From Granulicella sp. S156 (lineage in GTDB: Bacteria > Acidobacteriota > Terriglobia > Terriglobales > Acidobacteriaceae), in contig NZ_LMUH01000025.1 in NCBI RefSeq assembly GCF_009766105.1, forward strand, positions 501,190 through 565,189: DNA of 64,000 nt. Reading direction: 5' to 3'. This document shows, piece after piece, positions 48-20,104 of the stretch (position 1 is its first letter; every line of letters starts with the position of its first letter). The translations under genes and the position numbers were made by a program. The notes beneath the pieces are model-generated. The model made no database searches. It was not told the origin of the DNA and saw only the letters and a program-made list of their open reading frames with translations.

Positions 48-1460
48 ATGAGCAACACTATTCGAATTGCTGTGGTTGGTTCTGGATATGTCGGCCTGGT
101 AGCGGCCGTTTGCTTCGCGGAGATGGGACATAGCGTTGTATGCGTCGATAATGACCAACAAAAGGTCGACGCATTGCAGGGCGGAGATTGCCCGATCCAT
201 GAGGAACATCTGCCTGCGTTGCTCGAACGTTATAGAAACTCTAAAGTGCGTTTTACAAACGATCTGGCCGAAGCCACACGCGGAGCCGAGGCAATCTTCA
301 TCGCAGTCGGAACGCCACAAAGCGGTTCGGGCGTTGCCGATCTTTCCTATGTTGAAGCGGTAGCTAGCGAAATTGCGCGGTCGCTGACGACCTACACGGT
401 CATCGTCGAAAAAAGTACAGTCCCCGTATACACGAATGAGTGGATACGCAGAGTGATGGAGCGCAATGGCGTCGCGCAGCATCTGTTCGACGTTGTCTCA
501 AACCCAGAGTTCCTGAGAGAAGGAACAGCAGTCCGTGATTTCCTCCATCCTGATCGAATCGTAGTCGGAACCGACAGTGAACGCGCCGCTGCAGTGCTAT
601 CGAAGATTTACGAACCACTGACGACTGGCAGCTACTATGAGCAGCCTTCTGCGATTGATGGCTTCTGCACCTCTCATGAGCCACCGCCACTGCTGCTCAC
701 TTCAACGAAGAGTGCAGAGATCATCAAGCATGCCTCAAACGCCTTTCTCGCATTGAAGATATCGTTCATCAATGCTGTATCAAACCTATGTGAGGCGGCA
801 AATGCCGATGTCGAGCAGGTCGCGAGAGGAATGGGAATGGATAGCCGGATCGGCCCCCGGTTCCTAAGTCCCGGTATAGGTTACGGCGGATCCTGTTTTC
901 CCAAAGACGTCGCCGCCTTCCGATGCGTAGCAGAGCAACTTGGAGTCGATTTTGCTCTGTTGGCTGAGGTAGAAAACATCAATAAAGACCAAAAGATACG
1001 TTTCCTAAACAAGGTGCGTTCAGCGCTGTGGACCCTCCGAGGCAAAAAGCTCGGGGTGCTCGGACTCGCGTTCAAAGGTGGAACGGATGACATACGTGAA
1101 TCACCGGCAATAGAAATCGTCCAGATGTTGATTGCTGAAGGCTGCCCGATTAAGGTGTTCGACCCTGCTGCGATGGAACGCGCGGAACAGGTACTGCCCT
1201 CCAGTTCAAGTCTGCAATACGTATCCGATGCATACGCAGCCTCCAAAGATGTGGATGCTTTGCTGATTCTCACGGATTGGTCGGAGTTCGCCCGTCTTGA
1301 CCTGCAGCGTCTCAACAGACTGATGCGCTATCCCATCGTTATAGATGGTCGTAATCTCTATGATCCCGAGTTGATGATAGAAAATGGCATCACGTATTTC
1401 AGTGTAGGCCGCCCCACAAAGCACCACGTGCATGAGTTCGCAGCCGCAGGGGCCAACTGA
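48..1460 (+). CDS. ugd: UDP-glucose 6-dehydrogenase
   Basis: Cytoplasmic NAD-dependent enzyme that oxidises UDP-glucose to UDP-glucuronate, a sugar donor and the substrate of the next gene. The 470 residues fit the family. The Rossmann motif GSGYVG lies at residues 11-16, the family block NPEFLREG starts at residue 152, and the nucleophilic cysteine is C283 inside GYGGSCFPKD. A purine-rich GAGGTGG sits 11 bases before the ATG. It is the first gene of a rightward set (ugd, uxs, glycosyltransferase, flippase), which places it in exopolysaccharide precursor supply together with galU at the other end of the locus. Identification is firm; the role in this EPS is inferred from context. Confidence 0.96.
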   Translation: MSNTIRIAVVGSGYVGLVAAVCFAEMGHSVVCVDNDQQKVDALQGGDCPIHEEHLPALLERYRNSKVRFTNDLAEATRGAEAIFIAVGTPQSGSGVADLSYVEAVASEIARSLTTYTVIVEKSTVPVYTNEWIRRVMERNGVAQHLFDVVSNPEFLREGTAVRDFLHPDRIVVGTDSERAAAVLSKIYEPLTTGSYYEQPSAIDGFCTSHEPPPLLLTSTKSAEIIKHASNAFLALKISFINAVSNLCEAANADVEQVARGMGMDSRIGPRFLSPGIGYGGSCFPKDVAAFRCVAEQLGVDFALLAEVENINKDQKIRFLNKVRSALWTLRGKKLGVLGLAFKGGTDDIRESPAIEIVQMLIAEGCPIKVFDPAAMERAEQVLPSSSSLQYVSDAYAASKDVDALLILTDWSEFARLDLQRLNRLMRYPIVIDGRNLYDPELMIENGITYFSVGRPTKHHVHEFAAAGAN

Positions 1461-1578
1461 CATAACGTCTAAGTACCGAAGTAGTTGCAAATGAACGCTC
1501 CTGTCCTTTCTCGGTCAGAATGCATTATCTCGACATTTTGAGATCCACGTCATCAAGCTCACTCACCAGGGGGTGGAT

Positions 1579-2538
1579 ATGAACTCCAGCAGAATCCTCG
1601 TTACTGGCGCAGCAGGTTTTCTTGGTTCTCACTTGTGCGATTCCCTGCTCAACGAAGGCAATCGTGTAGTCGGTGTGGACAACCTCAGCACGGGTAGCGA
1701 AACCAACCTGGCTCATCTTTCCAGAGAGTCAAGGTTTGAGTTCGTTCAGCAGGACATCTGTCAGCCTTTCGACGTTGGTGCAGTGGATTTTGTATTCAAC
1801 TTCGCTTCGCCGGCAAGCCCTGTAGACTACGCACGGCTTGGAATTGAGACCTTGCTGGTAGGTTCAGCAGGAACGCTGAATACGCTCGAGATTGCAAGAC
1901 GGCATAATGCAGGATATCTTCACGCATCAACTTCCGAGTGCTATGGAGATCCTGAAGTCCATCCTCAGTCGGAAACCTACTGGGGCAACGTCAATCCGAT
2001 TGGACCTCGCTCCGTCTATGACGAGGCCAAGAGATTTTCCGAAGCGACAGTAATGGCTTTTCACCGCTACCACAGCGTAAACACGCATCTCGTACGAATC
2101 TTCAATACGTATGGTCCAAGACTGCAAATCAATGACGGCAGGGTGATTTCGAATCTGATGTCACAAGCTCTCGCCGGAGAACCGTTGACTATATATGGCG
2201 ATGGGTCACAGACCCGTAGTTTCTGCTATGTCTCGGACTTGATTGAAGGTATTCTCGCACTGGCGGATTCAGACGAGCACCTCCCGGTAAATATAGGCAA
2301 TCCCGACGAATGGACCATTCTGGAGTGCGCAGAAGAGATCCTGAAGGTCACCGGCGTCAGCGGCAATATTGTCTTCAAACCACTTCCACAGGATGATCCA
2401 ACACGCCGCAGGCCAGATATCCGCAAAGCAAAGGCTCTTCTTGGATGGCAGCCAAAGGTGAAGTTGCGTCAGGGCCTTGAGCTGTCGTTGGAGTACTTTG
2501 AGGGTTGCGTGGATAAGCGTCTGGTTCTGAACTCGTAA
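1579..2538 (+). CDS. UDP-glucuronate decarboxylase (UDP-xylose synthase, UXS family)
   Basis: Extended short-chain dehydrogenase/epimerase that converts UDP-glucuronate to UDP-xylose. The NAD-binding GAAGFLG motif is near the N terminus and the catalytic pair is Y147/K151 in SVYDEAKRF. The block [17 protein letters not shown] followed by [11 protein letters not shown] is typical of UXS rather than of dTDP-glucose dehydratases. I start at ATG 1579 because AGGGGG at 1568-1573 is well placed for it; a GTG at 1573 would overlap that Shine-Dalgarno. The product has 319 residues. It takes the product of the upstream ugd, and its stop shares one base with the next start (TAATG), indicating translational coupling. 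An arnA-like or 4-epimerase activity is less likely. Confidence 0.9.
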
Positions 2539-3665
2539 TGTCGATAGTCGCTTATCATCTCCTAACCGAGGCCGAGCCCTTCTCAGAATTTCATGGAGGC
2601 GCGATCTCACGTTGGGCTGCGAATGTCCTTCGCAATAAAAAAGCGTCAGTTGTCGTTTGCCCCTCCGCCGACACCACCTGGAAGTTTCCTACGGAGACCG
2701 TCCTCACTCTTCCAGCTCTGGCTCGCTATCGTCGCATTCGACGCCACCTTTTACGGCTTCCCTGGAGCCTCCATTCTGCCGTAATCCAGCATACCTTCCG
2801 CCCGATGCTGAAGCGTCTGAAGAGCGGTGACATCGTGTGGATTCACAATCGGCCGGACTTCGCAATCGCACTCACCCCACATGTTCATCGTGCCGGCGGC
2901 AGAGTAGTTCTCCATCTCCATAACTCGCACTTGGCCGAGTGGCCTGAAACTCTGACGCGGCGGGTCTGCGTCGATAGACTCGTCTTCGTAAGCGAGTTCT
3001 TATTGGAGCAAGCACGAAATAGGTTCCCGTCTCTCGGGGTCTCGTCCGTGCTCTACAACGGAGCCGACGAATCAATCTTCTATCCTTCTCCTCATCGCAA
3101 AGAAGAGCCAAAGATACCTACCGTTCTCTTCGCTGGCCGCCTCGTTCAAGACAAAGGCGTTCATATTCTGACAGAAGCCATGAAGCTTCTCGCTCAACAG
3201 AACATTGCACTCAAAGCACACATAGTCGGATCTTCCAGCTTCGGTGATAACCGAGAGACTGACTATATTAATCACCTCAAAAGAAATGCTCCGCCAAATG
3301 TAACCTTTCTTCCCTATCGCTCTGGAACCGCGCTGGGCGACCTATTTCGAGAAGCCGACATATTCTGCTCCCCTTCGATATGGGACGAGCCATTCGGTCT
3401 CGTCAACGTCGAGGCATTCGCATCCGCTTTGCCGGTCATCAGTACGCGTGGCGGCGGAGCCTCAGAGATCTTTGCAGACGGCGGCGGCATCCTCGTGGAG
3501 CGTGGATCTGCGGAGCAGCTCGCCGGCGCCTTACGCCAGCTGGCGGAAGATACAAAGCTTCGGTCCGCTCTGGGCCAACAGGGTTACACCGTGTTTCGCA
3601 ACCGTTTCACCTGGTCCGTAGCTCGCACTCAGGTTCAGGACATCTATCGGAGCCTCTCTGCATGA
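2538..3665 (+). CDS. Glycosyltransferase, GT4 family (GT-B fold)
   Basis: Cytoplasmic retaining glycosyltransferase of 375 residues, probably extending the lipid-linked EPS repeat unit. The C-terminal nucleotide-sugar domain shows FAGRLVQDKGVHIL and the E-x7-E pair E284/E292 within EPFGLVNVE, followed by a Gly-rich GGGASEI stretch, as in GT4 enzymes. The N-terminal acceptor domain is divergent. The start codon overlaps the uxs stop by one base and its own stop overlaps the flippase start by four (ATGA), so all three are likely translated from one mRNA. Donor and acceptor sugars cannot be read from sequence; coupling to uxs makes UDP-xylose or UDP-glucuronate reasonable candidates, as inference only. 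Confidence 0.9.
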   Translation: MSIVAYHLLTEAEPFSEFHGGAISRWAANVLRNKKASVVVCPSADTTWKFPTETVLTLPALARYRRIRRHLLRLPWSLHSAVIQHTFRPMLKRLKSGDIVWIHNRPDFAIALTPHVHRAGGRVVLHLHNSHLAEWPETLTRRVCVDRLVFVSEFLLEQARNRFPSLGVSSVLYNGADESIFYPSPHRKEEPKIPTVLFAGRLVQDKGVHILTEAMKLLAQQNIALKAHIVGSSSFGDNRETDYINHLKRNAPPNVTFLPYRSGTALGDLFREADIFCSPSIWDEPFGLVNVEAFASALPVISTRGGGASEIFADGGGILVERGSAEQLAGALRQLAEDTKLRSALGQQGYTVFRNRFTWSVARTQVQDIYRSLSA

Positions 3666-4945
3666 TCCAGCATCAAATCAAACGAATTCGCCAAAGCACT
3701 CTCGCCCGCAACTCCTTCTGGATGTTCGCAGGCCAGGGTTTATCCTTCGTTATCCAAGCGTTATACTTCATCTTTCTTGCGCGTCTTCTCAATCCCACGC
3801 AGTATGGCGTTCTGGCGGGTGCCGTTGCCCTTGTCACCGTTGTCAGTCAATACAGCACCATGGGATCAGGCCTAATTCTGATCCGGTACGTTAGCCAGGA
3901 CCATGAACGATTTCCCGAATACTGGGGTAATGTGCTGATGTCGACCGTGGTGTACGGCTCCCTCATCGTGCTCGCATTGCACTTCACCGGACACTGGCTC
4001 ATCGGCGCGGAGAGTGCCTCACTGCTAACGCTCATCGCCTTCTCAGATTGCATCTGCGGACAGTTGACGACATGTGCCGCCCAGGCGTTTCAGTCTTTCG
4101 AGCATATGCGTCCCACCGCCACCCTCAACATGCTAGTCAACTTATTTCGACTCGTCCTGGTCTGCTCGATGCTTTTCGTCATGCATCATGCTGTAGCCAT
4201 GCAATGGGCCGTGGCCATGCTTGTCGTTTCTATTTGCGCATCATCCGCTGCAGTTACCATCGTTACGCGCCGCTTCGGCTGGCCACGCTTCCAGCCAAGA
4301 CTCCTTTTGGCGCGCGGCGTGGAAGGGTTCATCTTTGCCATCTCAGGCTCAACGACCTCAGCCTACAATGACTTCGACAAGGTTATGCTCGGCCACTACG
4401 GCATGACAGTCGCAAATGGCATTTACTCGATGGCATATCGTGTCATCAACATAGCAACGATGCCCATCCAGTCGATTGAGGCAGCTGCCTTCCCTCGTTT
4501 CTTTCGCGAAGGAGCCAAAGGTGTTGCCGCAGTCCAACCCCTCGCGGTAAAAATCCTGAAGCGTACAGTTCTACTCGGCCTCGCAGCTGCTATTGGCGCA
4601 TTTCTGTTCGCACCTGTTATTCCAGTTCTCATTGGCAAAGGCTTTAAACCAAGTGTGAGCGCGTTGCGCTGGCTCTGTTTGATTCCGGTCTTCCGTAGCT
4701 TCCACTTGTGCGCTGGCGACGCGATCGCCGGTGTGGGGCAGCAGAAGTTTCGCCTGGGCTGCCAACTCTTCGCAGCCGGATTCAACATTGCCCTGAACGT
4801 GTATCTGATTCCACGTTATTCGTGGTGGGGCGCGGCAATTTCCAGTCTGCTGACAGATGGAAGTCTCGCTATTCTTACCTGGTCTGTGCTCTTCTGGTTA
4901 CGCCGTCGCGAACGTGTCGCTGCTCTCACAACACAACTCGCGTAA
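3662..4945 (+). CDS. Polysaccharide flippase (Wzx/MATE-like, Polysacc_synt family)
   Basis: Inner-membrane protein of 427 residues expected to flip undecaprenyl-linked oligosaccharide units to the periplasm. It is built of about 12 hydrophobic segments; the N terminus ARNSFWMFAGQGLSFVIQAL and the following LARLLNPTQYGVLAGA stretch are typical of this family. The open frame runs back to 3380, but that extension lies inside the upstream glycosyltransferase in another frame. ATG 3662 gives the 4-base ATGA overlap with the preceding stop and a normal family N terminus. It closes the rightward operon; the next gene converges on it only 36 bp away. With the ligase/polymerase and Wza/Wzc-type proteins it completes a Wzx/Wzy-dependent export route. 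Confidence 0.88.
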   Translation: MIQHQIKRIRQSTLARNSFWMFAGQGLSFVIQALYFIFLARLLNPTQYGVLAGAVALVTVVSQYSTMGSGLILIRYVSQDHERFPEYWGNVLMSTVVYGSLIVLALHFTGHWLIGAESASLLTLIAFSDCICGQLTTCAAQAFQSFEHMRPTATLNMLVNLFRLVLVCSMLFVMHHAVAMQWAVAMLVVSICASSAAVTIVTRRFGWPRFQPRLLLARGVEGFIFAISGSTTSAYNDFDKVMLGHYGMTVANGIYSMAYRVINIATMPIQSIEAAAFPRFFREGAKGVAAVQPLAVKILKRTVLLGLAAAIGAFLFAPVIPVLIGKGFKPSVSALRWLCLIPVFRSFHLCAGDAIAGVGQQKFRLGCQLFAAGFNIALNVYLIPRYSWWGAAISSLLTDGSLAILTWSVLFWLRRRERVAALTTQLA

Positions 4946-4981
4946 GCCCACGCCATGGGAATTAGCATACATTTTGCCTAA

Positions 4982-6367
4982 TTAGACAGCATGTACCGCC
5001 GACAAAACCGGCTTCGTAATCTGCCTTATGCCCGGCGATTGCAAGCGCATTCGTTCCAGCTTCAAGCCCACACAAGCAATCAAGAACATCATTGATCCAA
5101 GATGCCTCGGCTCGAAAAGAAAGCTCTCGTCCATGTTGTAAATGAGAGTAAGGATGACGATCGCCAGGTACCACTCCACCGCCTGGAGCTGTTCATTGTC
5201 ACGTGAGCGCAAGAGACAACGCACCCCATCACGAAATGCAAAGCCGAAGAGTAGCAACACGATAACCAAACCTCCGACACCGACTTCGAGCATCACATCG
5301 AGAAATCCATTCTGCGCCTGTGCCAAAGCCCACGTTACCGTGAGAATGATGCGATAGGACTCTCCCTTGAAGCCAAGCCAAAACGCCTGATATCCATAGC
5401 CAACCAGCGGCCGTTTAGCTATCGATCCTGCCACCGCATCCCATATCTCAGTGCGGCCGGTCAGCGTCGCGTCTTTTCCGAGCAGCCTGAACAGGAAATC
5501 GGGTTGTAATAGGATCACCGCGATTACTGCAGCAAAGGCCACAAACAGCAAAATGAAGGCGACGAAATAGTCCTTCTTCCTAAAACCACGCACTGTCTTC
5601 AGGGTCACCGCATAGGCAATATAAACCGCAGTCAACATATAACCTGTTGCCGCATGCGAAAAAGCAATTGCTACTAGGCAGAAGAAGATCTGCGAAAAAC
5701 GTAGTGATCTAAAAAACTTGGTACGGGGGCGGTATGAAACCGCCACTGTTAGAAAAAATAGCCCCATGTTGCCAAGATAATTTTTAGCGCTGAAGATACC
5801 TTTCCATGCACTGGAGTGACCACCCAGCAAATCACGGCCGTACTGCGGTAGAGCTAGGGCAAACAGAATACTAGCCACGATTGTTCCTGTTCCCAGAACA
5901 AGAAATAGTTCAAGGACCTCATTAATCGTGTATCGAGACATTATGTAGAAGACAAGTAGAATGCCCCCCAGCAGCACTATGCCAGAACTGAGGGTTCGCG
6001 TGAATTGTTGCGATACAGGAGAGAGAAGGAACACAAGAATCGGAAAAAGGATCACCAGCTTCATCTGAAGTCCGAGCCGACAAACCGACCGATGCTGCCG
6101 AATAACGAAAAACATACAACTGCCAAAGATCAGCACATTGTTAAGGCGGTCCCAAAGAGGTGACCCACCCGTCGAAACCGCTCGCATAGCGACCCCGCTG
6201 TTCGTAAACGGCGAGACGCCATCAAGCGCAAAGTAAAGTAGCGGTAGTAAAAGCCCCCAAGTCGAAGCACGGCTCCAGAAACTGCTCGCGCCTTCTGCGG
6301 TGCGCACGGTTCTTTTTGCACTATCGTCGACGACCGTAGCTAGTCTCAGAACTTGGGAGGTTGCCAA
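4982..6367 (-). CDS. O-antigen ligase/polymerase family membrane protein (Wzy_C)
   Basis: Polytopic inner-membrane protein (461 residues, roughly 11 segments) of the O-antigen ligase superfamily, here most likely the Wzy-type polymerase that joins EPS repeat units in the periplasm. The central region containing GHSSAWKGIFSAKNYLGNMG and the later GRTEIWDAVAGSIAKRPLVG stretch match the conserved periplasmic-loop region. Translation appears to begin at a TTG (6365-6367): AGGAG lies six bases upstream and no in-frame ATG gives a better N terminus. It is last in the leftward transcript, 26 bp after the export protein. Ligase and polymerase functions cannot be separated by sequence; the EPS context favours polymerase. 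Confidence 0.85.
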   Translation of the reverse strand: MATSQVLRLATVVDDSAKRTVRTAEGASSFWSRASTWGLLLPLLYFALDGVSPFTNSGVAMRAVSTGGSPLWDRLNNVLIFGSCMFFVIRQHRSVCRLGLQMKLVILFPILVFLLSPVSQQFTRTLSSGIVLLGGILLVFYIMSRYTINEVLELFLVLGTGTIVASILFALALPQYGRDLLGGHSSAWKGIFSAKNYLGNMGLFFLTVAVSYRPRTKFFRSLRFSQIFFCLVAIAFSHAATGYMLTAVYIAYAVTLKTVRGFRKKDYFVAFILLFVAFAAVIAVILLQPDFLFRLLGKDATLTGRTEIWDAVAGSIAKRPLVGYGYQAFWLGFKGESYRIILTVTWALAQAQNGFLDVMLEVGVGGLVIVLLLFGFAFRDGVRCLLRSRDNEQLQAVEWYLAIVILTLIYNMDESFLFEPRHLGSMMFLIACVGLKLERMRLQSPGIRQITKPVLSAVHAV

Positions 6368-6393
6368 AAAAACTCCTAATCTACTGGGTACGT

Positions 6394-7284
6394 CTAGTGT
6401 ATGTAGATGGCCGCGGACGTGGCCGAAGCCAAAATCGATGAACCATTCACCATAACGTTGCGCAAAGCACTGAAAGGCACATACACCACGTCGTCTGGCA
6501 ATAGGGCTATATCTTTCGTTTTGCCTTTCTCCATCGCGCCCACCGGCAGGTCGATCTGTTCCACGCCTGTCGGAGTTTTGCGAACAAGCTTCGATCTACC
6601 AACCGCTGCCGTATGGTTCGCGTAACCTGCGAGCGCAATCGCTTGTAGTACAGTCATCTTCGAGTCGTTGGTATTGATGGGGTAACCGCCAGGCTTTGAA
6701 ACGTCGCCGAGCACATATACAACTGCAGCTTCGGGCACAATTACCGTATCACCGGGGTAAACCATGGGATCTTCTTGTAGCGCTGTTCCGGCAACGTTGG
6801 AATAGTAGTACTGTACCTTCTGGTTTGGATCGCCATACCGCTCAATCGTGATATGACGATCCGCAATAGCCGTCAATCCCCCGGCCAGCGCGAGCACATC
6901 AATCACCTTCCGGCGCGTGTCAATCTCATACGGCCCTGGTTTCAATACCTGTCCCATTACGGAAACGTTCTGGGTAGCGTATTCGTCCACGCGTATTGTT
7001 ACCTGAGGGTGCACCATAATGCCTGCAGCAATAAGTCGATGCTCGATCTCATTGGCTGCGTCGCCAGGAGTCATGCCGGCAACCTTTACATTTCCGAGAA
7101 AGCTCAGCGGAAGATCGCCAGAATCTGTCACACGAGCACGCTGCTCCATCTCTGGCGTATCGTAGACCTGAATGTGGAGAATATCGCCGTGGCCAATCAG
7201 CAGGCTTTCCTTTTGGGCCAGCATGCTTGTCCCAATGCTGAAAATAAAGACCAGTAGAATGCCAATTAATTTGGGGTTCTTCAT
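6394..7284 (-). CDS. Polysaccharide export protein, Wza-like (Poly_export/SLBB)
   Basis: Secreted or outer-membrane-associated protein of 296 residues forming the export channel for EPS. An N-terminal signal (GILLVFIFSIGTSMLAQ) precedes a Poly_export domain (about residues 28-110, with DILHIQVYDTPEME and SGDLPLSFLGNV) and two SLBB-type domains (about 112-185 and 190-280). No cysteine is present at the expected cleavage site, so unlike classical Wza it does not look like a lipoprotein. Its ATG directly follows the TAG stop of the tyrosine-kinase gene (stop 7285-7287, start 7282-7284), indicating tight coupling of the two export components. Length is shorter than E. coli Wza (about 380), common in other phyla. 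Confidence 0.9.
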   Translation of the reverse strand: MKNPKLIGILLVFIFSIGTSMLAQKESLLIGHGDILHIQVYDTPEMEQRARVTDSGDLPLSFLGNVKVAGMTPGDAANEIEHRLIAAGIMVHPQVTIRVDEYATQNVSVMGQVLKPGPYEIDTRRKVIDVLALAGGLTAIADRHITIERYGDPNQKVQYYYSNVAGTALQEDPMVYPGDTVIVPEAAVVYVLGDVSKPGGYPINTNDSKMTVLQAIALAGYANHTAAVGRSKLVRKTPTGVEQIDLPVGAMEKGKTKDIALLPDDVVYVPFSALRNVMVNGSSILASATSAAIYIH

Positions 7285-9579
7285 CTATGCCCTCACAGAC
7301 TTTCTTCCGATATATTCGTAAAACACATGTCCCGCAGCAGGCTGCTCACGCACCCCGTTGACCAGGACATTAATCTTGCGATCGCTCTCCGAATGCACCG
7401 CCTCCAGCATCTGATAACTCTTCTCGAGTGCCAAGAGAGGCGTCTTTTGATGCCGGGCAATGAGCAGGACCGAATCAACGAACGAACTCAGAACGACCGA
7501 GTCCGTCACCGGTAGTACAGGGGGAGCATCAAGAAGGACCAAATCATACTGTGACTCCCAAACCTTCAATAGATTCGCCATCTGATCTGATGACAGCAGT
7601 TCTGAAGGATAAGGTGGCGTAGGTCCTGCCGGCATAAGATCGAGTCCTGGAACGGCGGACACCGGGATCATCGCAGAAGCGCCATGATCATTTGAAAGTC
7701 CAGCCAACACTGTGCTCAACCCAGCCTTCGGGTCCAGCAGCAGGTCCTTATGCAACCGCGCCTTGCGCAGATCTGCATCGCATAGCAACACTCGCTTCCC
7801 TTGCTGTGCAAAGAGGATTGCAAGGTTCCAGCTTATGTAGCTTTTGCCCTCTCCTGCCAAAGGGCTTGTCACTAGGACCGACCGTGGAGGCGCCCCGTGC
7901 CGGGAGAGCATCAGAGAGGTTCGGAGCGAGCGAAGTGACTCCACAAAGATGGAGCGTGGGCTGTCAAGGACTGGCAGCAATATAAGTGGATAGTTCGCTA
8001 TCGTATTTGAAGGTAGAGCTGCACGCTCATTCTGATAGGGCAGGACACAGAGCGGTGTGGCACCCAACTCCCGAGTAATCTCCCGCACATCCTGAATCTT
8101 AATGTCAGTCACATCACGCAGCAGCGCCACAGCAGCACCCACAAACAATCCTGCTACGATTGATCCGAACAAATAGAGCAGAGCAACCGGTTTTGCCGGC
8201 TTATCGGTCGGCCGCCCCGCATCAACGATAGTTATGTTCGTTGAACGTAAGCCCGCCAGCAGTCCCGACTCTTTGAGCCGTCGCAAAAGATCGTCATAGA
8301 GCGTGCGGGTTTGGTCGGCTTCCTGCCGCGCCATCTGGACTTCAATAGTCCTGTTGTTGAGTGTCTCAGCCTGCCCCTTAGCCGCGTCGTAATCTTTGCG
8401 CGTATTCTCCTCTGTCTGCTGCGCGACGATAAAGTCATTGTGAGCGCGTCCAGCAACTCGATCCACCTCTGCTCGAATCGCTCCTTGTACCGCTTCCAAA
8501 TTGCCGCGAGTCTCGGCAATTTTCGGATAGTTAGGTCCAAACTTTGCGGACATCTCTTGCAACTGTCCTTGAAGAGTCGCTTCCTGTAATCGCAGATTCT
8601 GTATGAGTGTCAGTGAACTGCCGATGCCGGAGGATGAGCTCGCTAAAATCGTATTTCCGCTCAACCCCGAGATCAGCTCGGGATTACCCGTCTTGGCAAC
8701 ATCGTAAATTGCGCCTTTCAAAATGCGATTTTGCTCTGCCTGAGCCACCGCCTGAGTAGCTATCTGCAGCTTGTCGAGCGTCGGGCTATAAACTTGATCT
8801 TTACCCTGTTGATCGACTTCACCCAGAGCATAGACTCCGGATCCTTGCCGCAGCTTGACGACTTTCGCTTGCAATTCCTGAGTTTGCGCTCGCAGATCCG
8901 CAAGTTGCCCATTCAACCATGACGACACCTGCGTTGTCGCGTCATAGCGTGTCTGAAATCCTGTCTCAATGAGCCCTTGAAGCATATGGTTCACGACTGC
9001 TGCTGCCAGTTGTGGATCGGGGCTTAGGTACTCCACATCGATGAGACGCGTCCCGTCAACAACCTTCACCGTCATCTTCTTATGAAAGATCTTCAGAACC
9101 TGTACTCGGCGATGGGGAGAGTCATCAAGCGACGCGCCTTTGGGGTCGGGCCTCCCTTTTGGACTTATTAGCCCGAACACCCAACTAATCGGACTCCACT
9201 TCTCCTTATAATCTTCCGTTTGTTCAAGGTGGAGTTCATTGATCACACGCAGCGCCAGCGAGTCCGACTCCAGGATCTTCGCTTGCGTCTGAAGAATCAT
9301 ATTCTCTTCAAGAGCATCGGAGGGAGTGTCCGTAGTATCCGTCTGTAAACCGAGCGAGGTTCCGGAGTCTTTTTGGACCTGGATCTCTCCAACGGACTTA
9401 TAGCGACGAGTTGTGATCATGAGAAGAAGAATGGCGAGCAGAAAACACACTCCTACGCTGCCATAAATAATCCTGCGGCGGCGCCACAGCATCATCCATA
9501 TTTCGCGAAGCGTGAGTTCGGGTGACGATGAACCCGCTGCAATAACAACACCTGGGGAATGGAGCGCGATCTTATCCAA
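7285..9579 (-). CDS. Wzc-type chain-length regulator / BY-kinase fusion
   Basis: Inner-membrane EPS co-polymerase fused to a cytoplasmic bacterial tyrosine kinase (764 residues). An N-terminal Wzz domain with TM segment (VCFLLAILLLMI), a long periplasmic coiled region and a second TM (ALLYLFGSIVAGLFVGAAV) precede the kinase. Walker A is GEGKS (about 576-580), the Walker A' aspartates are in LLCDADLRK (about 601-603) and Walker B is LLDAPP (D about 684). Classical BY-kinases end in a tyrosine cluster; here only two tyrosines, about residues 754 and 756 in FYEYIG, lie in the last 20 residues. It would control EPS length together with the adjacent Wza-like and Wzy-like proteins. Confidence 0.92.
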   Translation of the reverse strand: MDKIALHSPGVVIAAGSSSPELTLREIWMMLWRRRRIIYGSVGVCFLLAILLLMITTRRYKSVGEIQVQKDSGTSLGLQTDTTDTPSDALEENMILQTQAKILESDSLALRVINELHLEQTEDYKEKWSPISWVFGLISPKGRPDPKGASLDDSPHRRVQVLKIFHKKMTVKVVDGTRLIDVEYLSPDPQLAAAVVNHMLQGLIETGFQTRYDATTQVSSWLNGQLADLRAQTQELQAKVVKLRQGSGVYALGEVDQQGKDQVYSPTLDKLQIATQAVAQAEQNRILKGAIYDVAKTGNPELISGLSGNTILASSSSGIGSSLTLIQNLRLQEATLQGQLQEMSAKFGPNYPKIAETRGNLEAVQGAIRAEVDRVAGRAHNDFIVAQQTEENTRKDYDAAKGQAETLNNRTIEVQMARQEADQTRTLYDDLLRRLKESGLLAGLRSTNITIVDAGRPTDKPAKPVALLYLFGSIVAGLFVGAAVALLRDVTDIKIQDVREITRELGATPLCVLPYQNERAALPSNTIANYPLILLPVLDSPRSIFVESLRSLRTSLMLSRHGAPPRSVLVTSPLAGEGKSYISWNLAILFAQQGKRVLLCDADLRKARLHKDLLLDPKAGLSTVLAGLSNDHGASAMIPVSAVPGLDLMPAGPTPPYPSELLSSDQMANLLKVWESQYDLVLLDAPPVLPVTDSVVLSSFVDSVLLIARHQKTPLLALEKSYQMLEAVHSESDRKINVLVNGVREQPAAGHVFYEYIGRKSVRA

Positions 9580-12211: not shown

Positions 12212-13332
12212 GCGGCAATTCCTCCGATCTTCAGCACCTGGCGGTAAAGCTGCTCATACTGTGGTGCGATTTCGCTCCACGAAAACCGGCGTGTCGCCGC
12301 ACGCGCCGCCTCTCCCATAGCTGCGGTGTCTTCCGGGGACATCATCAACACACGCTCTATAGATGCCGCAAGCTCCGTCGCATCGACGTCCGTCAGAAAG
12401 CCGCTCACTCCACTTTCAATCACATCTGGATGCGCACCTACCGCGGTCACCACAGGCACCGTCGCTGCGCTCATTGCTTCTATCGTCGACAGTCCAAACC
12501 CTTCATACGATGAAGCCGACACAAACATCTGAGCCCGCTCCAATAAGCGGTACAACTCTTCGCGGCTGGTTGCGCCATGGAAGCGCACGCGGCCACCTAA
12601 CCCGAGCTCAACAGCGCGGTGCTCAAGCGAGGTACGCAGCCCAGAGTAATCCGCTCCCACCCACTCCAATCGCATCTGCGGATATCGATCCTTCAACGAA
12701 GCCATCGCCTCCAACACCTTGTGAACGCGCTTGTTCTCGGCCAGTCGCGAGATGCCCAATATCACGCCAGGTTCCACCTTCTTCTTCAGGCTCCAAAAGC
12801 GATCTATGTTGGCACCGTTCTCAATAAGGCGGATGCGCTGCCGCGGCACGATCTCCTCAAACTTTTCACGATCCTGCTGGCTCACGCACACCACTGCGCC
12901 CACACCACCCAGCGACATGCGCGTAACGGTGCTAAAGTACATCTGCTTGAAACGGCTTGCCCATTGCGTGTGGAAGATGCCTCCGTGCGTACTGACCACC
13001 AGGGGGATGCGGTGCAGCAAACGCAACAAGCTCAGATAATCCACGAAGAAGTCGATGGCATGAATATGCACCAGGTCGTAACCGCGAATCTCCGCGAGCG
13101 CTGCTGGAGCCACCGGATAACGTTTAGGCCCCCAGTGACGCATGCGCCGCACCGTCAACCCTGCCTCGATGGATCTCGCAGGAGCACTCGTTCCAGTTGC
13201 AAACAATGATCGAAGTGTCGCCACCCGCACGGTGTGCCCCTTTTGCTGCAAGGCACAGCTCAGCCCCTCCACCACGCTCTCTATTCCTCCCTCGGAAGGA
13301 AGAAACTGTCGCGTTAGTTGAAGTATCTTCAT
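12208..13332 (-). CDS. Glycosyltransferase, GT4 family
   Basis: Second GT-B transferase of the leftward set, 374 residues from the chosen start. The N terminus MKILQLTRQFLPSEGGIE is the classic GT4 opening with its glycine loop; ILGISRLAENKRVHKVLEAM and the E-x7-E segment EGFGLSTIEAMSAATVPV mark the donor domain. The frame is open upstream to 13416, but those 28 residues overlap the previous gene and are Pro/Ala-rich; ATG 13332 gives an ATGA overlap with the upstream stop. Four-base overlaps on both sides show a tightly coupled run of three glycosyltransferases. Substrate is unknown. Confidence 0.9.
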   Translation of the reverse strand: MKILQLTRQFLPSEGGIESVVEGLSCALQQKGHTVRVATLRSLFATGTSAPARSIEAGLTVRRMRHWGPKRYPVAPAALAEIRGYDLVHIHAIDFFVDYLSLLRLLHRIPLVVSTHGGIFHTQWASRFKQMYFSTVTRMSLGGVGAVVCVSQQDREKFEEIVPRQRIRLIENGANIDRFWSLKKKVEPGVILGISRLAENKRVHKVLEAMASLKDRYPQMRLEWVGADYSGLRTSLEHRAVELGLGGRVRFHGATSREELYRLLERAQMFVSASSYEGFGLSTIEAMSAATVPVVTAVGAHPDVIESGVSGFLTDVDATELAASIERVLMMSPEDTAAMGEAARAATRRFSWSEIAPQYEQLYRQVLKIGGIAA

Positions 13333-14285
13333 CGTGAGTGCACCAAGGGGCGTAGCGCCGGCCGTCGTGCTATCCAGTCCCGCAGGTAGCGGCGACGGCG
13401 ACGGGGCAGCACCCACATCGCTAAGAAAATCGCATAGTCGCGGAGCGAAGCCTTGCCATGGCGCAAAACTTCAAAAAGCAGCATAGGAAAGGCACGCCAC
13501 TCTCCTTGCTCTGAAGCCTCTGGGGCTATTTGATGAAGGACAAACCCCGTCAGCGCGCGGGGCGTAAAGAGGTGCCGGTCGCTGCGTACCCAGGCCAGAG
13601 AGTACCTCCAATTCGCCTTGCTGCTCACAGAGGCGCGTTCCTCCTCGATATAGTGAATAGCCATGACCTCATTCACAAATACGGCTTCGGCCCCTGGCAA
13701 CCGCCCTACACGCAGCAGCCATTCCGTATCCTGATGCTTCAACTGACCGCTCTTAAAAGGCTGACCTAGCATGAGCGAGCGACGCACAAAGAACGTCGAT
13801 GTCTGGATCGACCCTTCGCCGCGCGAAAGCGTACGGCGCGCCAAAAGATACTCGCAAATCGGCTCCCCCGGCTCCGGCATACGACGAGGCCACACATAGT
13901 CGTTACCCGGCGTGCGAGCGATAATCTTGCAGGTACCGATTACCACCGGCGCCGTCGATGCCGCAACTGCCTCAAGCTGTGCTTCGAGCTTACCCGGCAG
14001 CCATTCATCGTCATCATCGAGAAATGCAATCCATTTTCCCGAAGCCTCGGCCACCCCGCGATTACGCGCGTCGGATCCGCCAACACTCACTGGCAACGCG
14101 ATCACACGTACACGACCGTCTTCTCGTGCCAACGTCTCAAGCGCATGCTCCGTGGCCAGGTCCTGTCCGTCGATAACAACCACCGCCTCAATCTCTCGCA
14201 GCGTCTGCGCCAGCACACTGCGCACCGCGCGTAGCAAAAGCTCTGGTCGTCCACGCGTTGGGATTACGGCCGACACAAGAACCAT
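13329..14285 (-). CDS. Glycosyltransferase, GT2 family (GT-A fold)
   Basis: Inverting family 2 glycosyltransferase, 318 residues. It opens with VSAVIPTRGRPELLLRAVRS and contains SDARNRGVAEASGKWIAFLD followed by a DDDE acidic run (the DxD metal/nucleotide site). A strong AAGGAGG lies seven bases before the ATG. It heads a run of three overlapping glycosyltransferase genes. The C-terminal part has few long hydrophobic stretches, so it is a soluble or peripheral enzyme rather than a processive synthase. It probably adds one sugar to the lipid-linked EPS unit; the sugar cannot be inferred. Confidence 0.92.
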   Translation of the reverse strand: MVLVSAVIPTRGRPELLLRAVRSVLAQTLREIEAVVVIDGQDLATEHALETLAREDGRVRVIALPVSVGGSDARNRGVAEASGKWIAFLDDDDEWLPGKLEAQLEAVAASTAPVVIGTCKIIARTPGNDYVWPRRMPEPGEPICEYLLARRTLSRGEGSIQTSTFFVRRSLMLGQPFKSGQLKHQDTEWLLRVGRLPGAEAVFVNEVMAIHYIEEERASVSSKANWRYSLAWVRSDRHLFTPRALTGFVLHQIAPEASEQGEWRAFPMLLFEVLRHGKASLRDYAIFLAMWVLPRRRRRYLRDWIARRPALRPLVHSR

Positions 14286-14356: not shown

Positions 14357-15463
14357 TCACGCACGTCGAGGCGCTGCCTCAAGCGCTTCAGCGATCGCGT
14401 AGTACGCGGGCTTAGGCTGACAATTTGCATCGAAAGGAAGTGGACGCACAGGCAAGCCGTCCTTGCGTGGACGGTATCCGGAGATCCATGTGAAGGAATC
14501 TGAAAGTCCCCATGTAATGACCCCCCTAACCGCAGGCTGCCGTAAGCTGGCGGTTAGAAATTTTCTATAGAGATCCGCAATTGCCTTGTCGCGTGCACCG
14601 ACATCTACGGGAAGACTCGTATCCTGAATGTCCAGCTCCGTGATGAAGATCTTCATTCCCCGTTTCGCCAGCTCGCCAAGAAACACCTCGTAACTCGCGT
14701 CTCCCAGCACATTTGCCTGATCGCTTCGCAGATGAGCCTCTAGGCCAATCCCATGAATCGGAACTCCCCGTGCCAGCAGCCCGTCAAGCTGACTGAGCAT
14801 TGCTTTCCGTTTCGCATCGCCAAAACCATTGGATACTTCGAGATAGTTTTCGTTCCAAACCAGAAGAGCCTTCGGGTCGGCTGCGGCTGTCGCGCGGAAT
14901 GCCTGTTCGATATAGTCGACGCCGATGTCCTGCAGCCAGGGGCTGGCCCGCAGACCATCCGGACGTTGACTGCCCGGATCAAGCGCCTCATTCACCACGT
15001 CCCAGGAATAAAGCTTTCCTGCGAAGTGTCCAGCGACTGCATGAATATGATCCAGCATCATAGTCTTGGCAGTTTCCGGTGAGATCTTCTGTTTCACCCA
15101 TGCGGGCAGAGAATCATGCCACACCAGCGTATGCCCACGCACCTTGATGCGATTAGCCGCACAGAACGCCACAAACTGATCGGCATTACTAAAATCGTAT
15201 TCACCTGCTTGGTGGCTCAACGAGTCCCACTTCATGTGCAACTCTGGCGTTGCAATATCGCACTGCGATAAAAACAGCTCTTTATAGGCTGGCGACTGAT
15301 TGAAGTACTTCAGCGCGAGGCATGAGCCAAACATCAATCTCTTCTGATCAGCCAGCTCCTTCAGAGGGGCCACCGCAGCCTGCGCCCTGGCCTCCAACGA
15401 AGCCCACCCCGCCATCGCGGACACGCCCAGCACTTTAACAAAATCTCTGCGATTCATTCCCAT
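14357..15463 (-). CDS. Tat-exported GH10 endo-beta-1,4-xylanase
   Basis: Retaining family 10 glycosidase, 368 residues from ATG 15463, which has AGGAG five bases upstream; the open frame extends further but without support. The N terminus carries a twin-arginine signal (NRRDFVKVLGVSAMAGW). The GH10 signature residues are present: HTLVWH at 111-116, acid/base E159 in WDVVNE and nucleophile E276 in ITELDIQ. GH10 enzymes cut beta-1,4-xylan chains. The gene sits between the glycosyltransferases and wecG-like genes of a locus that also makes UDP-xylose, so a role in processing the cell's own EPS is at least as likely as plant xylan degradation. No carbohydrate-binding module is present. Confidence 0.92.
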   Translation of the reverse strand: MGMNRRDFVKVLGVSAMAGWASLEARAQAAVAPLKELADQKRLMFGSCLALKYFNQSPAYKELFLSQCDIATPELHMKWDSLSHQAGEYDFSNADQFVAFCAANRIKVRGHTLVWHDSLPAWVKQKISPETAKTMMLDHIHAVAGHFAGKLYSWDVVNEALDPGSQRPDGLRASPWLQDIGVDYIEQAFRATAAADPKALLVWNENYLEVSNGFGDAKRKAMLSQLDGLLARGVPIHGIGLEAHLRSDQANVLGDASYEVFLGELAKRGMKIFITELDIQDTSLPVDVGARDKAIADLYRKFLTASLRQPAVRGVITWGLSDSFTWISGYRPRKDGLPVRPLPFDANCQPKPAYYAIAEALEAAPRRA

Positions 15464-15601: not shown

Positions 15602-16510
15602 CTACGCCTCTCCTGACACCCTGGCGTTCAGCCTTCCCCCTTTGCGTACAAAATCCATCGCCAGCAGCATCACAACGTACCAAGGCTCTATCAGATACCG
15701 ACCGAAGAGCCGGCGTGGCTCACTTACCAGCCGGAAAGCCCACTCCAATCCCAGCCGCCCCGCCCAGCGCGGTGGCGTCGGCACCGCACCGGCGACGTAA
15801 TCGATAGCTGCGCCATTCGAAGCCAAAATCACATGCGTATCGAGGCGAGCAAAGTTTTCCAGAGTCCAGAACTCCTGCCGAGGCATTCCCATCCCTACCA
15901 TCAAAAGATCGGGCTTGTAGGCATTGATCCGTTGCACCACTGCTTCATTCTCGGAACTACCCGGACGAGCATCGAAGTATCCGTTGCTTACTTCGATCTG
16001 CAATCCGGGGTACATTCTGCGTAACTCTGCAGCGCCCTTTTCTGCAACGCCATCCGGCGAACCAAGATTGAACACACGCCACCGCTTCCGAGCAGCCATC
16101 TCCATCAGAGGATGCATCCAGTCCGCCAGCGTCACTCTCTGTTCGCGCTCCAGAGCATAGCCGTAAAGCTTTCCCAGTGCGATGAGCGGCATTCCATCAA
16201 TGAATGTCCAATGTGCGTTCTTATAGAACTCGCGCAGTCTCGGCTTCCGATGAAACAAATACACGCTATGCAGATTATGGTTTGTGATAATCCACTTCCT
16301 GCGCTCTAAAACGCCTTGCTCGACCACCGCCGTCAGTTCCGGTGATGACATGGGATTCAGGGTTAATCCCAAAAAGGAAATTTCACGGCTGCCCGCCTGC
16401 CGCACAGACTGAGCAGGACCGGAACTCTCGTGATTGTTTCCCTGTACTTCGGCCCGCCTACTGCTGCCACTTACACTGGGAAGTTCGGATAGAGTGTCAT
16501 ATCTATGCAT
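15602..16510 (-). CDS. Glycosyltransferase, WecG/TagA/CpsF family (GT26)
   Basis: Family 26 transferase of 302 residues. After a variable N terminus the conserved block is FLGLTLNPMSS, WIITNHNLHSVY, FIDGMPLIALGKLYG, then WRVFNLGSPDGVAEKGAAEL and LLMVGMGMPRQEFW, all typical of WecG/TagA/GumM-like enzymes that act early in assembly of lipid-linked repeat units. I use ATG 16510; the frame stays open to a TTG at 16531 but that has no better ribosome site. It is separated from the GH10 gene by about 140 bp and from galU by about 200 bp. No initiating phosphoglycosyltransferase (WbaP/WecA type) is visible in the window, so the priming step must be encoded elsewhere. Confidence 0.9.
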   Translation of the reverse strand: MHRYDTLSELPSVSGSSRRAEVQGNNHESSGPAQSVRQAGSREISFLGLTLNPMSSPELTAVVEQGVLERRKWIITNHNLHSVYLFHRKPRLREFYKNAHWTFIDGMPLIALGKLYGYALEREQRVTLADWMHPLMEMAARKRWRVFNLGSPDGVAEKGAAELRRMYPGLQIEVSNGYFDARPGSSENEAVVQRINAYKPDLLMVGMGMPRQEFWTLENFARLDTHVILASNGAAIDYVAGAVPTPPRWAGRLGLEWAFRLVSEPRRLFGRYLIEPWYVVMLLAMDFVRKGGRLNARVSGEA

Positions 16511-16554
16511 AATGGCAAGGACTCTGGACAACAGCCTAGGTCAGGCCCACCGAT

Positions 16555-16594
16555 CCGACAATGAAGAGAATCACCTGAACCGTACTTCTCATAT
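16555..16594. repeat. 40-bp repeated element, copy 1 (upstream of the GT26 gene)
   Basis: The 40 bases here match 17966-18005 at about 33 positions, starting with 16 identical bases (CCGACAATGAAGAGAA). This copy lies 45-84 bp upstream of the GT26 start codon. No coding function is seen; a shared regulatory sequence of the EPS locus is one explanation. Confidence 0.5.
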
Positions 16595-16716
16595 GGACAA
16601 AGTCCGCACATGCACCAAACATGAACCCATAAAATCAGGGCTTTCCACCTAAACCAAATGGTATGTACGACTTAGAACCTCACACATCTAGCCATTGATG
16701 GGAATGCTCCTAAACA

Positions 16717-17664
16717 TTAAACAGTTGCCATCTCAACATTCTTCTCATGCCCTCGTGGCAGCGCGAACAGTGTCTGGTCAGACTCCGAAAACTGCTGCGT
16801 CATCAGCCATTCACGGAACTTCGGTCCGAGTTCATTGTGCTTTAGCGCGAACTCGACGGTTGCCTTCAGGAACCCGAGTTTGTCGCCCGCATCGTGACGC
16901 TTGCCCTCGTAGCTGAAGCCGTAGACCTTCTCATACTGCAGCAGTGCCTTGATGGCGTCGGTAAGCTGCAATTCGCCGCCCGCACCGGGCTTGGTCTTCT
17001 CGATCATCTCGAAGATGCGCGGCGTAAGAATGTAGCGACCGATGATCGCGTTCAGGCTCGGGGCGTCTTCGGGCTTCGGCTTTTCGACCATATTCTTCAC
17101 ATCGAGCAACTGCGGATTCTTCAGGTCAGTTATGCAGTCCAGGCAACCGTAGTGACTGATCGCTTCGCGCTCCACAACCTCTGAGCCCAGGATGGAGGAC
17201 TGAGTTTCGTGGAAGGCCTCCACCATCTGTTTCATGCACGGAACGCTGGAATCCACGATGTCATCGGGAAGGATTACAGCAAAGGGCTCATCGCCGACAA
17301 GGTACTTGGCCTGCAGTACGGCATGGCCCAGACCCAGCGGCTCAGGCTGCCGCGTGTAGACAATGCGGGCGAGTTTTGTCACCGACTGCGCGATCTCCAG
17401 TAATGCCGGCCGGTGGCGCGCCGTCAGCGAGGCCTCCAGCTCCGGCGATTTGTCGAAGTGGTCTTCCATCGTCGCCTTATTGCGTCCGGTAACGATAATG
17501 ATCTCAGTGCACCCAGCGGCAACCGCCTCTTCCACGGCGTACTGGATCAGGGGCTTGTCGACCAGCGGCAGCATCTCTTTGGGAGTTGCTTTAGTGGCGG
17601 GAAGAAATCGAGTACCCATGCCTGCCGCCGGAATCACAGCCTTGCGGATTTTCAGAAAAGCCAT
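16717..17664 (-). CDS. galU: UTP-glucose-1-phosphate uridylyltransferase
   Basis: Makes UDP-glucose from glucose-1-phosphate and UTP, the precursor of the ugd/uxs pathway. 315 residues, normal for GalU. The nucleotide-binding motif is AVIPAAGMGTRFLPATKATP at residues 9-28, followed by KEMLPLVDKPLIQY; later VEKPKPEDAPS and the GRYILTP segment also fit. GGAGG precedes the ATG by four bases. It is the most upstream gene of the leftward EPS set, so its promoter probably lies in the gene-free stretch 17665-18541. Supplying UDP-glucose here while ugd and uxs sit at the opposite end closes a complete route to UDP-glucuronate and UDP-xylose within the locus. Confidence 0.95.
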   Translation of the reverse strand: MAFLKIRKAVIPAAGMGTRFLPATKATPKEMLPLVDKPLIQYAVEEAVAAGCTEIIIVTGRNKATMEDHFDKSPELEASLTARHRPALLEIAQSVTKLARIVYTRQPEPLGLGHAVLQAKYLVGDEPFAVILPDDIVDSSVPCMKQMVEAFHETQSSILGSEVVEREAISHYGCLDCITDLKNPQLLDVKNMVEKPKPEDAPSLNAIIGRYILTPRIFEMIEKTKPGAGGELQLTDAIKALLQYEKVYGFSYEGKRHDAGDKLGFLKATVEFALKHNELGPKFREWLMTQQFSESDQTLFALPRGHEKNVEMATV

Positions 17665-18224: not shown

Positions 18225-18541
18225 CGATATAGTTGAAGTCTGCTAGCGGTAAAGGTTTTCTTCGTGGCAAGCGATAGCATCTGATGCCCTCTATGCGCCA
18301 AAAACGCTCTAAGAAACATCCATATTGTTGTCTAACCCGCGGGACGCAGACTTCCCTAACAAAAGCCACACAGCTTCACTCCGATTCGTAGCCGACGCTC
18401 CAAACAATTAGTTCAGAAGCGTGCCAGATAATGCGACAAGCAACACACGATAGTGAATTACTATGCCTTTCCGCCTCTGGCGCCCAGGCATGTTTTCAGA
18501 TAGGTTGAGGAGAAATATGTGCATTTTTGGCCTGAGGGAGA

Positions 18542-20104
18542 GTGACCTTGTCGAAGTCTGAGACCAATTTCATATTCGATGTGGTACGCAGACTGGCCCC
18601 CATCCGCAGCCTTCCAACAACGTCACGCAGGACGCTTTTGGGCGGGCTGGGCGCCACGATGGCGCTTCCTCTACTTCCCGCGATCACGCTGCTTGAGAGC
18701 GCCTCCACGGTGACAGCCGAAGCCGAAACGACTCCCCAGTCAGTGCCGATCAGGCCGCAACCGGTGCCGACGGCTGTGCAGACGGTGGCGACTGCCCAGA
18801 TCTCGACTACGGCAACGAGTGTACTGCCGAACTACTTCATGGGCCTTTCCTACGAGAAAGGCGACTTCGTGACAGAGCTGCTGTTCACAGGAAGTAACTT
18901 GCAGCTTGCCGGGCTATTTAACCGGCTGGGAAATGGAGTGCTGCGCATTGGGGGCAACTCCGTCGACACGACGGTGTGGAACGCAAATGGCGAAGGCAAT
19001 ACGGCCGGCCAGGTCGCTCCTGCTGATATAGAGAACCTTGCCCAGTTTATGGCGCTGACGAACTGGAAGCTGCTGTACGCGCTCAATCTAGCTACGTCGA
19101 CGCCGGCGTTAGCTGCCGCTGAGGCAGCGTATGTCCAGTCAGTGCTGGGGAACGTGCTGCTTGGTTTCGAGATTGGCAATGAGCCGGATGAGTATGGGCT
19201 CAGCTACTTTCCGACAGGTTGGAATCTGACTGCGTTTGAAACGCTGTGGGAGCAGTTCCGCTCGGCGATTGTTGAGGCAGTTCCGGCTGCAGTGATCACA
19301 GGCCCAGCTACAGCGGGAAATATAACGACGTGGACGGCTCCATTTGTGATGGGACCGAATGGCGGGCAGATCGCAGTATTGACGCAGCATTACTATCGCG
19401 GAAATGGCCACTCGGTGAATGCGACGGTGGCGAATCTGGTGTCGGCGGATAACACGATTGTGGCAGACTGTGTGGCACTGAAGTCGTCGGTGGCAGGAGT
19501 GAAGATTCCGTTTCGCTTTGCGGAGACGAACTCATACCTGTACGGCGGGTCTCCCGGTGTAAGCAATGCGTATGCCTCGGCGCTCTGGGCAATCGACCAC
19601 CTGTTTCACATTGCGTATGGCGGAGGCAGCGGCGTAAACATGCAGGGCGGCGACGATGCCTACTACACGCCGATTGAAAACGACAACTCTGTAATTGTGC
19701 AGGCGCAGCCGGAGTACTACGGACTGCTGTTCTTTTCGCTGGCGGGACAAGGAGAACTGCTGCCGACGAAGTTTTCGGTGGCAAATTTCAACGCGACGAT
19801 CTATGCGGTGCGGACGGCAACCGGTGGCTTGAATATCGTGATGGTAAATAAAGAAGTGTTTCAGAGCCTGAAGATCACGATCGACTGCAACCAACAGGTG
19901 AACGCAGCGGATTTGATTGAACTGCAAGGAAGTTCGCTGAGCGCGACTTCCGGACAGACGATCCAGGGCTACTCCGTGACGGTGGATGGGTCGTTTATTC
20001 CAGGGCCAACTTCTGGCTTGCCGTATGCTCCGGAGAATATCTCTTCTTCGTGGGTCACGTGCTATGTGCCGGCAATTTCGGCGGTGCTGTTGCGGGTGTC
20101 GTAA
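18542..20104 (+). CDS. GH79 beta-glucuronidase, Tat-exported (AcGH79-like)
   Basis: Secreted retaining beta-glucuronidase of about 520 residues. The N terminus has a twin-arginine type signal (SRRTLLGGLGATMALPLLP, from residue 29) then a Thr/Pro/Gln-rich linker. The catalytic core shows acid/base E214 in GNEPDE and nucleophile E328 in RFAETNSY. Their 114-residue spacing equals that recalled for the Acidobacterium capsulatum GH79 enzyme. A C-terminal beta-domain follows. GTG 18542 is the first possible start, but GGGAG is too close to it; TTG 18548 has better spacing. A 14-codon frame with its own AGGAG overlaps the start (18517-18561). Proximity to EPS genes making UDP-glucuronate suggests action on glucuronate side groups of that polymer. 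Confidence 0.88.
   Translation: MTLSKSETNFIFDVVRRLAPIRSLPTTSRRTLLGGLGATMALPLLPAITLLESASTVTAEAETTPQSVPIRPQPVPTAVQTVATAQISTTATSVLPNYFMGLSYEKGDFVTELLFTGSNLQLAGLFNRLGNGVLRIGGNSVDTTVWNANGEGNTAGQVAPADIENLAQFMALTNWKLLYALNLATSTPALAAAEAAYVQSVLGNVLLGFEIGNEPDEYGLSYFPTGWNLTAFETLWEQFRSAIVEAVPAAVITGPATAGNITTWTAPFVMGPNGGQIAVLTQHYYRGNGHSVNATVANLVSADNTIVADCVALKSSVAGVKIPFRFAETNSYLYGGSPGVSNAYASALWAIDHLFHIAYGGGSGVNMQGGDDAYYTPIENDNSVIVQAQPEYYGLLFFSLAGQGELLPTKFSVANFNATIYAVRTATGGLNIVMVNKEVFQSLKITIDCNQQVNAADLIELQGSSLSATSGQTIQGYSVTVDGSFIPGPTSGLPYAPENISSSWVTCYVPAISAVLLRVS

Follow-up and report, generated by a model that had tools for sequence, protein, structure and literature searches.

What does an enzyme of the xylanase type do inside a locus for exopolysaccharide (EPS) synthesis? 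The question is raised by a stretch of 64,000 nucleotides from Granulicella sp. S156 (assembly GCF_009766105.1, contig NZ_LMUH01000025.1, positions 501,190 to 565,189; here called the window), where a gene for a glycoside hydrolase family 10 (GH10) enzyme (14357..15463, − strand) lies among genes for Wzx/Wzy-dependent EPS synthesis and a GH79-type gene follows farther to the right. A preliminary description of this DNA had proposed a xylan- or glucuronoxylan-like EPS with both hydrolases as dedicated trimming enzymes. Our analysis confirmed the observation, and partly supported the interpretation. The locus probably carries the GH10 as its own enzyme, an exported endo-β-1,4-glycanase that trims or clears the EPS made by the same locus. 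The stronger point of the analysis is the recurrent pairing of wecG and GH10 genes across phyla.

In the window, the GH10 gene shares its strand with a GT2 glycosyltransferase gene (13329..14285; PF00535, 104 bits) at a spacing of 71 bp and with a wecG-type (WecG/TagA/CpsF) glycosyltransferase gene (15602..16531; PF03808, 167 bits), its recurrent neighbor, at a spacing of 48 bp. Since the gaps are this short and the strand is shared, the GH10 gene is very probably cotranscribed with these genes and lies within the operon. Among the relatives listed by a scan of GTDB genomes, the top match was Granulicella sp. dw_53 (stretch L101), with a GH10 79% identical to that of the window. A block of nine genes was found there in one order, wecG-GH10-GT2-GT4c-GT4b-acylT-wzc-wza-wzy, with identities of 74-87%. 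No relatives of galU, GH79, ugd or uxs were found in the 21-kb stretch of dw_53.

Matches to family models and solved structures placed galU, ugd, a true uxs, the export genes and five glycosyltransferase genes (three GT4, one GT2 and one WecG) where the preliminary description had located them. On the + strand, ugd and uxs are followed by the gene of a GT4 glycosyltransferase, GT4a (2538..3665; PF00534, 125 bits), and by the wzx flippase gene (3677..4945; PF01943, 107 bits). Facing them on the − strand are the genes of a wzy-type polymerase of the Wzy_C / O-antigen ligase family (4982..6367; PF04932, 43.6 bits), a wza-type outer-membrane export protein (6394..7284; PF02563, 65 bits), a wzc-type co-polymerase / tyrosine kinase (7285..9579; PF02706 and PF13614; TIGR01007, 125 bits, above its cut-off), a membrane acyltransferase (acylT, 9767..10918; PF01757, 99 bits) and two further GT4 enzymes, GT4b (10922..12211; PF00534, 136 bits) and GT4c (12208..13416; PF00534, 115 bits), then GT2, GH10, wecG and galU (16717..17664; TIGR01099, 354 bits, cut-off 326.8). 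The wzx, wzy, wza and wzc matches all exceeded the Pfam cut-offs. The gene of a priming transferase (PF02397) is found about 2.5-4 kb beyond the left edge of the window; with it counted in, the assembly line is complete, and Wzx, Wzy, co-polymerase, export protein and priming transferase are all present, as in a Wzx/Wzy-dependent EPS locus. Pfam typing found no receptor and no further hydrolase family among the genes at 48-17664, which lack the adjacent outer-membrane receptor of a catabolic xylan locus. A LuxR-family regulator gene (L055:19192-19977, + strand) ends just left of the window, directly upstream of ugd and on the same strand.

Pairs of GH10 and wecG genes were found in other genomes as well. 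Among 101 relative genomes, 33 had a GH10 match. Of the 48 match rows, one was the window, 43 were other places and the remaining four were second pieces of genes already listed; the surroundings of 33 of the 43 places were inspected, the ten weaker ones being left out, and a GH10 open reading frame (ORF) was recovered in 32 of them (none in L073). Polysaccharide loci hold five of these 32 genes, three in the same genus (L037, L045, L046) and two in the same family (L063, L071). The 101 relatives contain 68 wecG genes, and in six pairs a GH10 and a wecG gene are no more than 5 kb apart, where independent gene positions would give 0.12 (P = 4e-9). Without the window, there were five pairs (P = 1.8e-7).

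Scanned with an alignment of seven GH10 sequences, GTDB yielded at least 576 relatives, the best 80 of which were analyzed. Loci were labelled EPS-like if the stretch held at least two of wzx, wzy, wza, wzc and wecG, or wecG within 2.5 kb of GH10, according to our own profiles. By this definition 49 of the best 80 loci were EPS-like; of the 80, 40 had wecG within 2.5 kb of GH10 and 28 had it within 300 bp. Close wecG genes were seen in Cyanobacteriota (29 of 38), Pseudomonadota (7 of 18), Acidobacteriota (2 of 20), Thermodesulfobacteriota (1 of 1) and an unplaced genome (1 of 1), and in neither of two further phyla (0 of 1 each). Three of the EPS-like labels (L141, L142 and L165) are weak, with distant markers or no wecG, and the ORF chosen in L137 missed the GH10 itself. 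When labels were checked against Pfam, wecG was confirmed in 5 of 5 cases and Wzx/Wzy in 4 of 4, and an unlabelled ORF of L174 that had been guessed to be Wzy matched no Pfam family.

Because the best 80 had been picked by similarity, a second draw of 194 cyanobacterial genomes was made with the family model. GH10 matches were found in 19 of these genomes (18 over the cut-off), at 25 places. Of the 23 places examined (two marginal ones were left out), 11 GH10 genes were EPS-like and 9 had wecG within 2.5 kb. The center of the draw, Nostoc sp. T09, had itself been chosen for its EPS-linked GH10, and the counts without it are 10 of 22 and 8 of 22. In four Bradyrhizobium loci (L162, L163, L171 and L173), GH10 was divergent from wecG in every case, 97-179 bp apart, so the pairing holds even outside a shared operon. 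GH10 thus has the conserved placement in a biosynthetic cluster that marks an EPS-biosynthetic glycoside hydrolase. The exoproteome of Anabaena PCC 7120 includes an endo-1,4-beta-xylanase, Alr4448, according to the cited passage (PMC4390845).

In a tree of 135 GH10 proteins (a duplicate of L109 was dropped), with support from the quick Shimodaira-Hasegawa-like approximate likelihood ratio test (SH-aLRT) and without bootstrap, the EPS label changed 20 times, against about 45 times in shuffles. The GH10s of the window and dw_53 clustered with eight sequences of other genera and phyla, two of them from Rheinheimera, four from Bradyrhizobium and two from metagenomes, and all ten rows were EPS-linked (SH-aLRT 92). 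The two other GH10 paralogues of the genome fell in a group of 29 rows (SH-aLRT 98), 27 of them non-EPS. A smaller tree of 33 rows left the placement of the window GH10 unresolved. Elsewhere in the same genome (L041:9400-15640, on G000:C22), GH10, GH79 and an OMP_b-brl_4 receptor-type gene follow one another on a single strand, in an arrangement that looks catabolic. From the grouping of the paralogues and these C22 neighbors, one genome appears to hold both kinds of GH10. Synteny with dw_53, recurrence and phylogeny, with the two paralogues in a mostly non-EPS group, therefore bear out the earlier view of the window GH10 as an enzyme of the EPS locus.

The window protein is a member of GH10, with 291 bits against PF00331 (cut-off 22.1). 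Its catalytic Glu residues, described earlier as an intact E159/E276, are indeed intact: they are E157/E274 counting from MNRRDF and E159/E276 from the Met two codons upstream, the start being one of these two Met codons. Both were invariant across 136 GH10 sequences. The predicted model had a mean predicted local distance difference test (pLDDT) score of 92, its matches to GH10 structures indicate the (β/α)8 fold, and the first six Foldseek matches were GH10 xylanases with template-modelling scores of 0.79-0.82 by query length. The protein has the fold and catalytic residues of the GH10 xylanases XynB of Thermotoga (1vbr/3niy) and Cex of Cellulomonas (2exo), but is only about 32-35% identical to them, and its context is EPS synthesis. 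At the −2 subsite, as aligned to Thermotoga XynB, Glu and Lys are kept and Leu replaces Asn, and hence the window GH10 lacks the canonical Glu-Asn-Lys set of GH10 xylanases, in which the Asn pairs with Glu and Lys. Among sequences having a residue at this position, Asn is present in 17 of 59 EPS-linked GH10s versus 48 of 65 others, and a Tyr near it is kept in 20 of 66 versus 52 of 70, counts that rest on few independent events. In both the GH10 and the GH79 protein, RR precedes a hydrophobic stretch, which agrees with the twin-arginine translocation (Tat) signals predicted for the two in the preliminary description. A crude twin-arginine pattern gave a Tat-like signal in 61 of 66 EPS-linked GH10s.

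The published precedent for a GH10 in an EPS cluster is the promonan cluster of Sphingomonas sp. LM7, which in the cited passages comprises Wzx/Wzy, the WecG-type prmH, the acyltransferase prmO and the GH10 prmN (PMC11340318). It resembles the window locus as a Wzx/Wzy cluster with a WecG-type transferase, an acyltransferase and a GH10, but has an extra GH16 and GT2-family glycosyltransferases; the likeness is one of gene content. Promonan consists, as given there, of glucose (60%), glucuronate (24%) and galactose (17%); it is mostly 4-linked glucose and glucuronate, xylose is unreported, and WecG-family enzymes are described as adding a second sugar onto the lipid-linked one (PMC11340318). 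PslG, PelA and PgaB are likewise hydrolases encoded in the cluster of the polymer they act upon, but they belong to other families, act on other polymers and are experimentally proven, whereas the role of the window GH10 is read from sequence. In the open-access literature we found one published GH10 in a Wzx/Wzy cluster; subscription journals were mostly uncovered, and priority is not established.

If the GH10 serves its own locus, it would be exported by Tat and would cut internal β-1,4 bonds of the locus's polymer, in the periplasm or at the cell surface. Such cutting may keep chain length in check, remove stalled polymer or make the matrix looser. The adjoining WecG-type transferase may make the bond that is cut, as its adjacency to GH10 hints. 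The polymer that is cut is not necessarily xylan; a mixed β-1,4 backbone of glucose, glucuronate and/or xylose seems likelier, in which xylose is possible.

Several results weigh against this role. Among the recovered GH10 genes of the relatives, 27 of 32 lie outside EPS loci. Deletion of prmN altered neither colony form nor EPS production in the passages cited, although the same paper's table lists two transposon hits in prmN (PMC11340318). Tat-like signals are common in non-EPS GH10s as well (47 of 70), and none of the EPS-linked GH10s of this analysis has a known activity. An active-site difference between EPS-linked and other GH10s was not supported by a tree-aware paired test. The altered −2 subsite, although favored by the raw counts, was therefore rejected as proof of a new substrate and is treated as a lead only.

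Among the other explanations, the one that survives best is the original proposal of a xylan- or glucuronoxylan-like EPS trimmed by GH10 and GH79 together. It draws on the precursor genes beside the locus, ugd for UDP-glucose 6-dehydrogenase (48..1460; PF03721/PF00984/PF03720; TIGR03026, 440 bits) and uxs for UDP-glucuronate decarboxylase (UDP-xylose synthase, UXS; 1573..2538). Among solved structures, UXS1-type UDP-glucuronate decarboxylases matched the uxs product best, with 345-348 bits versus 131 bits for the next enzyme, a gap that indicates a genuine UXS. A UXS-grade match (at least 50% identity) is present in 11 of 15 genomes with an EPS-linked GH10, and the EPS of Granulicella sp. WH15 contains 41.8 mol% xylose and 8.1% glucuronate in the passage cited (PMC5259719). 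However, the ugd-uxs pair is unlinked to the GH10 block: in dw_53 (75% and 81% identity) it lies on another contig, and in genomes G019 and G027 it stands beside a different wzc/wza locus. Among stretches L034-L180, window aside, uxs relatives above 40% identity were found only in L112 (52%) and in a cut ORF of L108 (48%). We therefore rejected the UDP-xylose genes as a conserved companion of the GH10 block, and with it their earlier assignment to the same unit. UXS-grade matches were absent from four genomes with an EPS-linked GH10, namely G012 (74% complete), Rheinheimera, Mariprofundus and a Roseomonas metagenome-assembled genome. Together with the promonan cluster, where a GH10 occurs and the passages report no xylose (PMC11340318), the −2-subsite Asn lost from the window GH10, and the results for GH79 below, this makes the proposal unlikely.

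The EPSs of WH15 and 5B5 come from the genus of the sister locus and have xylose as a major sugar with glucuronate present, but the passages assign no genes and give no linkage showing β-1,4-xylan (PMC5259719). The WH15 composition means that xylose-rich EPS exists in Granulicella; it does not assign xylose to the window locus, and a xylan-like polymer from this locus is unproven. Nostoc commune reportedly has an EPS-associated xylanohydrolase and 4-linked xylose in its EPS.

The GH79-type gene (18542..20104, + strand) is outside the operon, divergent from galU with 877 bp between them, so that of the two hydrolases described as embedded in or beside the locus only the GH10 is inside. Its protein had no Pfam or NCBIfam match. 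It is nevertheless a GH79 member by similarity to solved GH79 enzymes (5bwi, 281 bits; 7pr9, 279; the Acidobacterium capsulatum β-glucuronidase 5g0m, 221) and by the catalytic E214 and E328, which are intact as described and sit in conserved motifs. A search of the dw_53 genome, in which 15 candidates were scored, gave no match to GH79 at E 0.001. GH79 matches were found in 46 of the 101 relative genomes, and in seven of the nearest, whose surroundings were inspected (L088-L094), BLAST with the window proteins detected no relatives of wzx, wzy, wza, wzc or wecG in any stretch. GH79 was therefore rejected as part of the EPS unit, and the claim that it is a dedicated trimming enzyme was not supported; homologues lying away from such loci, which the preliminary description had named as a refutation, were the outcome for GH79 only, GH10 being kept in the EPS block. 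Given the arrangements in dw_53, G019 and G027, what is conserved as a unit is the GH10-containing block, and neither the precursor genes nor GH79 belong to it.

GH79 is probably outside the EPS machinery, and we infer that it forms a separate, catabolic-looking neighborhood with the genes to its right. Next to it, the gene at 20961-25724 (+ strand) encodes a protein of 1587 aa in which an alpha-1,3-glucanase D1-like part is combined with three malectin and three fn3 stretches; it is likely carbohydrate-active and secreted. In L092, the GH79 neighbors are an alpha-galactosidase and a TonB-plug protein. In each of L089, L091 and L092, the GH79 relative has a galU relative (77-80% identical) at a distance of about 6-8 kb but no EPS genes, which we read as an old chromosomal neighborhood and not as support for a function in EPS.

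GH10 is a retaining family. With intact catalytic residues and binding-site positions that vary among the EPS-linked members, the window enzyme might act mainly as a transglycosylase that moves EPS chains to another acceptor, for anchoring or cross-linking, instead of hydrolyzing them; but no sequence feature separates transglycosylation from hydrolysis and nothing found indicates an acceptor, and we regard this as quite improbable. An ordinary plant-biomass xylanase lying by chance in an EPS operon is very improbable indeed, for although the same genome has the catabolic-looking set at C22 and GH10 genes of the relatives mostly lie outside EPS loci, the tree puts the C22 copy in a different group, GH10 recurs beside wecG in cyanobacteria and other phyla far more often than chance would give, and no receptor or other hydrolase family occurs among the genes at 48-17664.

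Other polysaccharide loci of the relatives were also inspected. Those of L063 (5097-12916, G037) and L071 (3555-10689, G033), both of the same family, contain wecG, GT4, GH10 and sulfotransferase genes; two sulfotransferases were found in L063, and one was typed in L071 together with a Wzy-type protein. These two loci suggest sulfated polysaccharides in Acidobacteriota; among bacteria, such polysaccharides have been reported mainly from cyanobacteria, according to the cited passage (PMC8205485). At L085:9337-13718 (G027), wzx is followed directly by GH125 and GH1 genes. Typing of ten selected proteins from EPS loci found through wzx and lacking GH10 (L081-L087) revealed no general hydrolase rule.

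The pairing is seen in distant bacteria, mostly cyanobacteria, and some "plant xylanase" genes therefore probably trim the cell's own polysaccharide. Going further, we lean toward the view that GH10s adjoining WecG-type transferases are widespread and largely unrecognized EPS-biosynthetic hydrolases of Cyanobacteriota, Acidobacteriota, Pseudomonadota and Thermodesulfobacteriota that have been recruited repeatedly and are adapted to mixed β-1,4 EPS backbones and not to plant xylan, in which case many "xylanase" annotations there would be functionally wrong. GH10, often taken as a sign of plant-biomass degradation, would then need another reading in cyanobacteria and some Acidobacteriota. The exported enzymes, each paired with the polymer of its own operon, form a concrete and testable set, and they could serve as tools for cutting and analyzing EPS of unknown chemistry. 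They are also relevant to the question of how chain length is controlled, or stalled polymer removed, in Wzx/Wzy systems.

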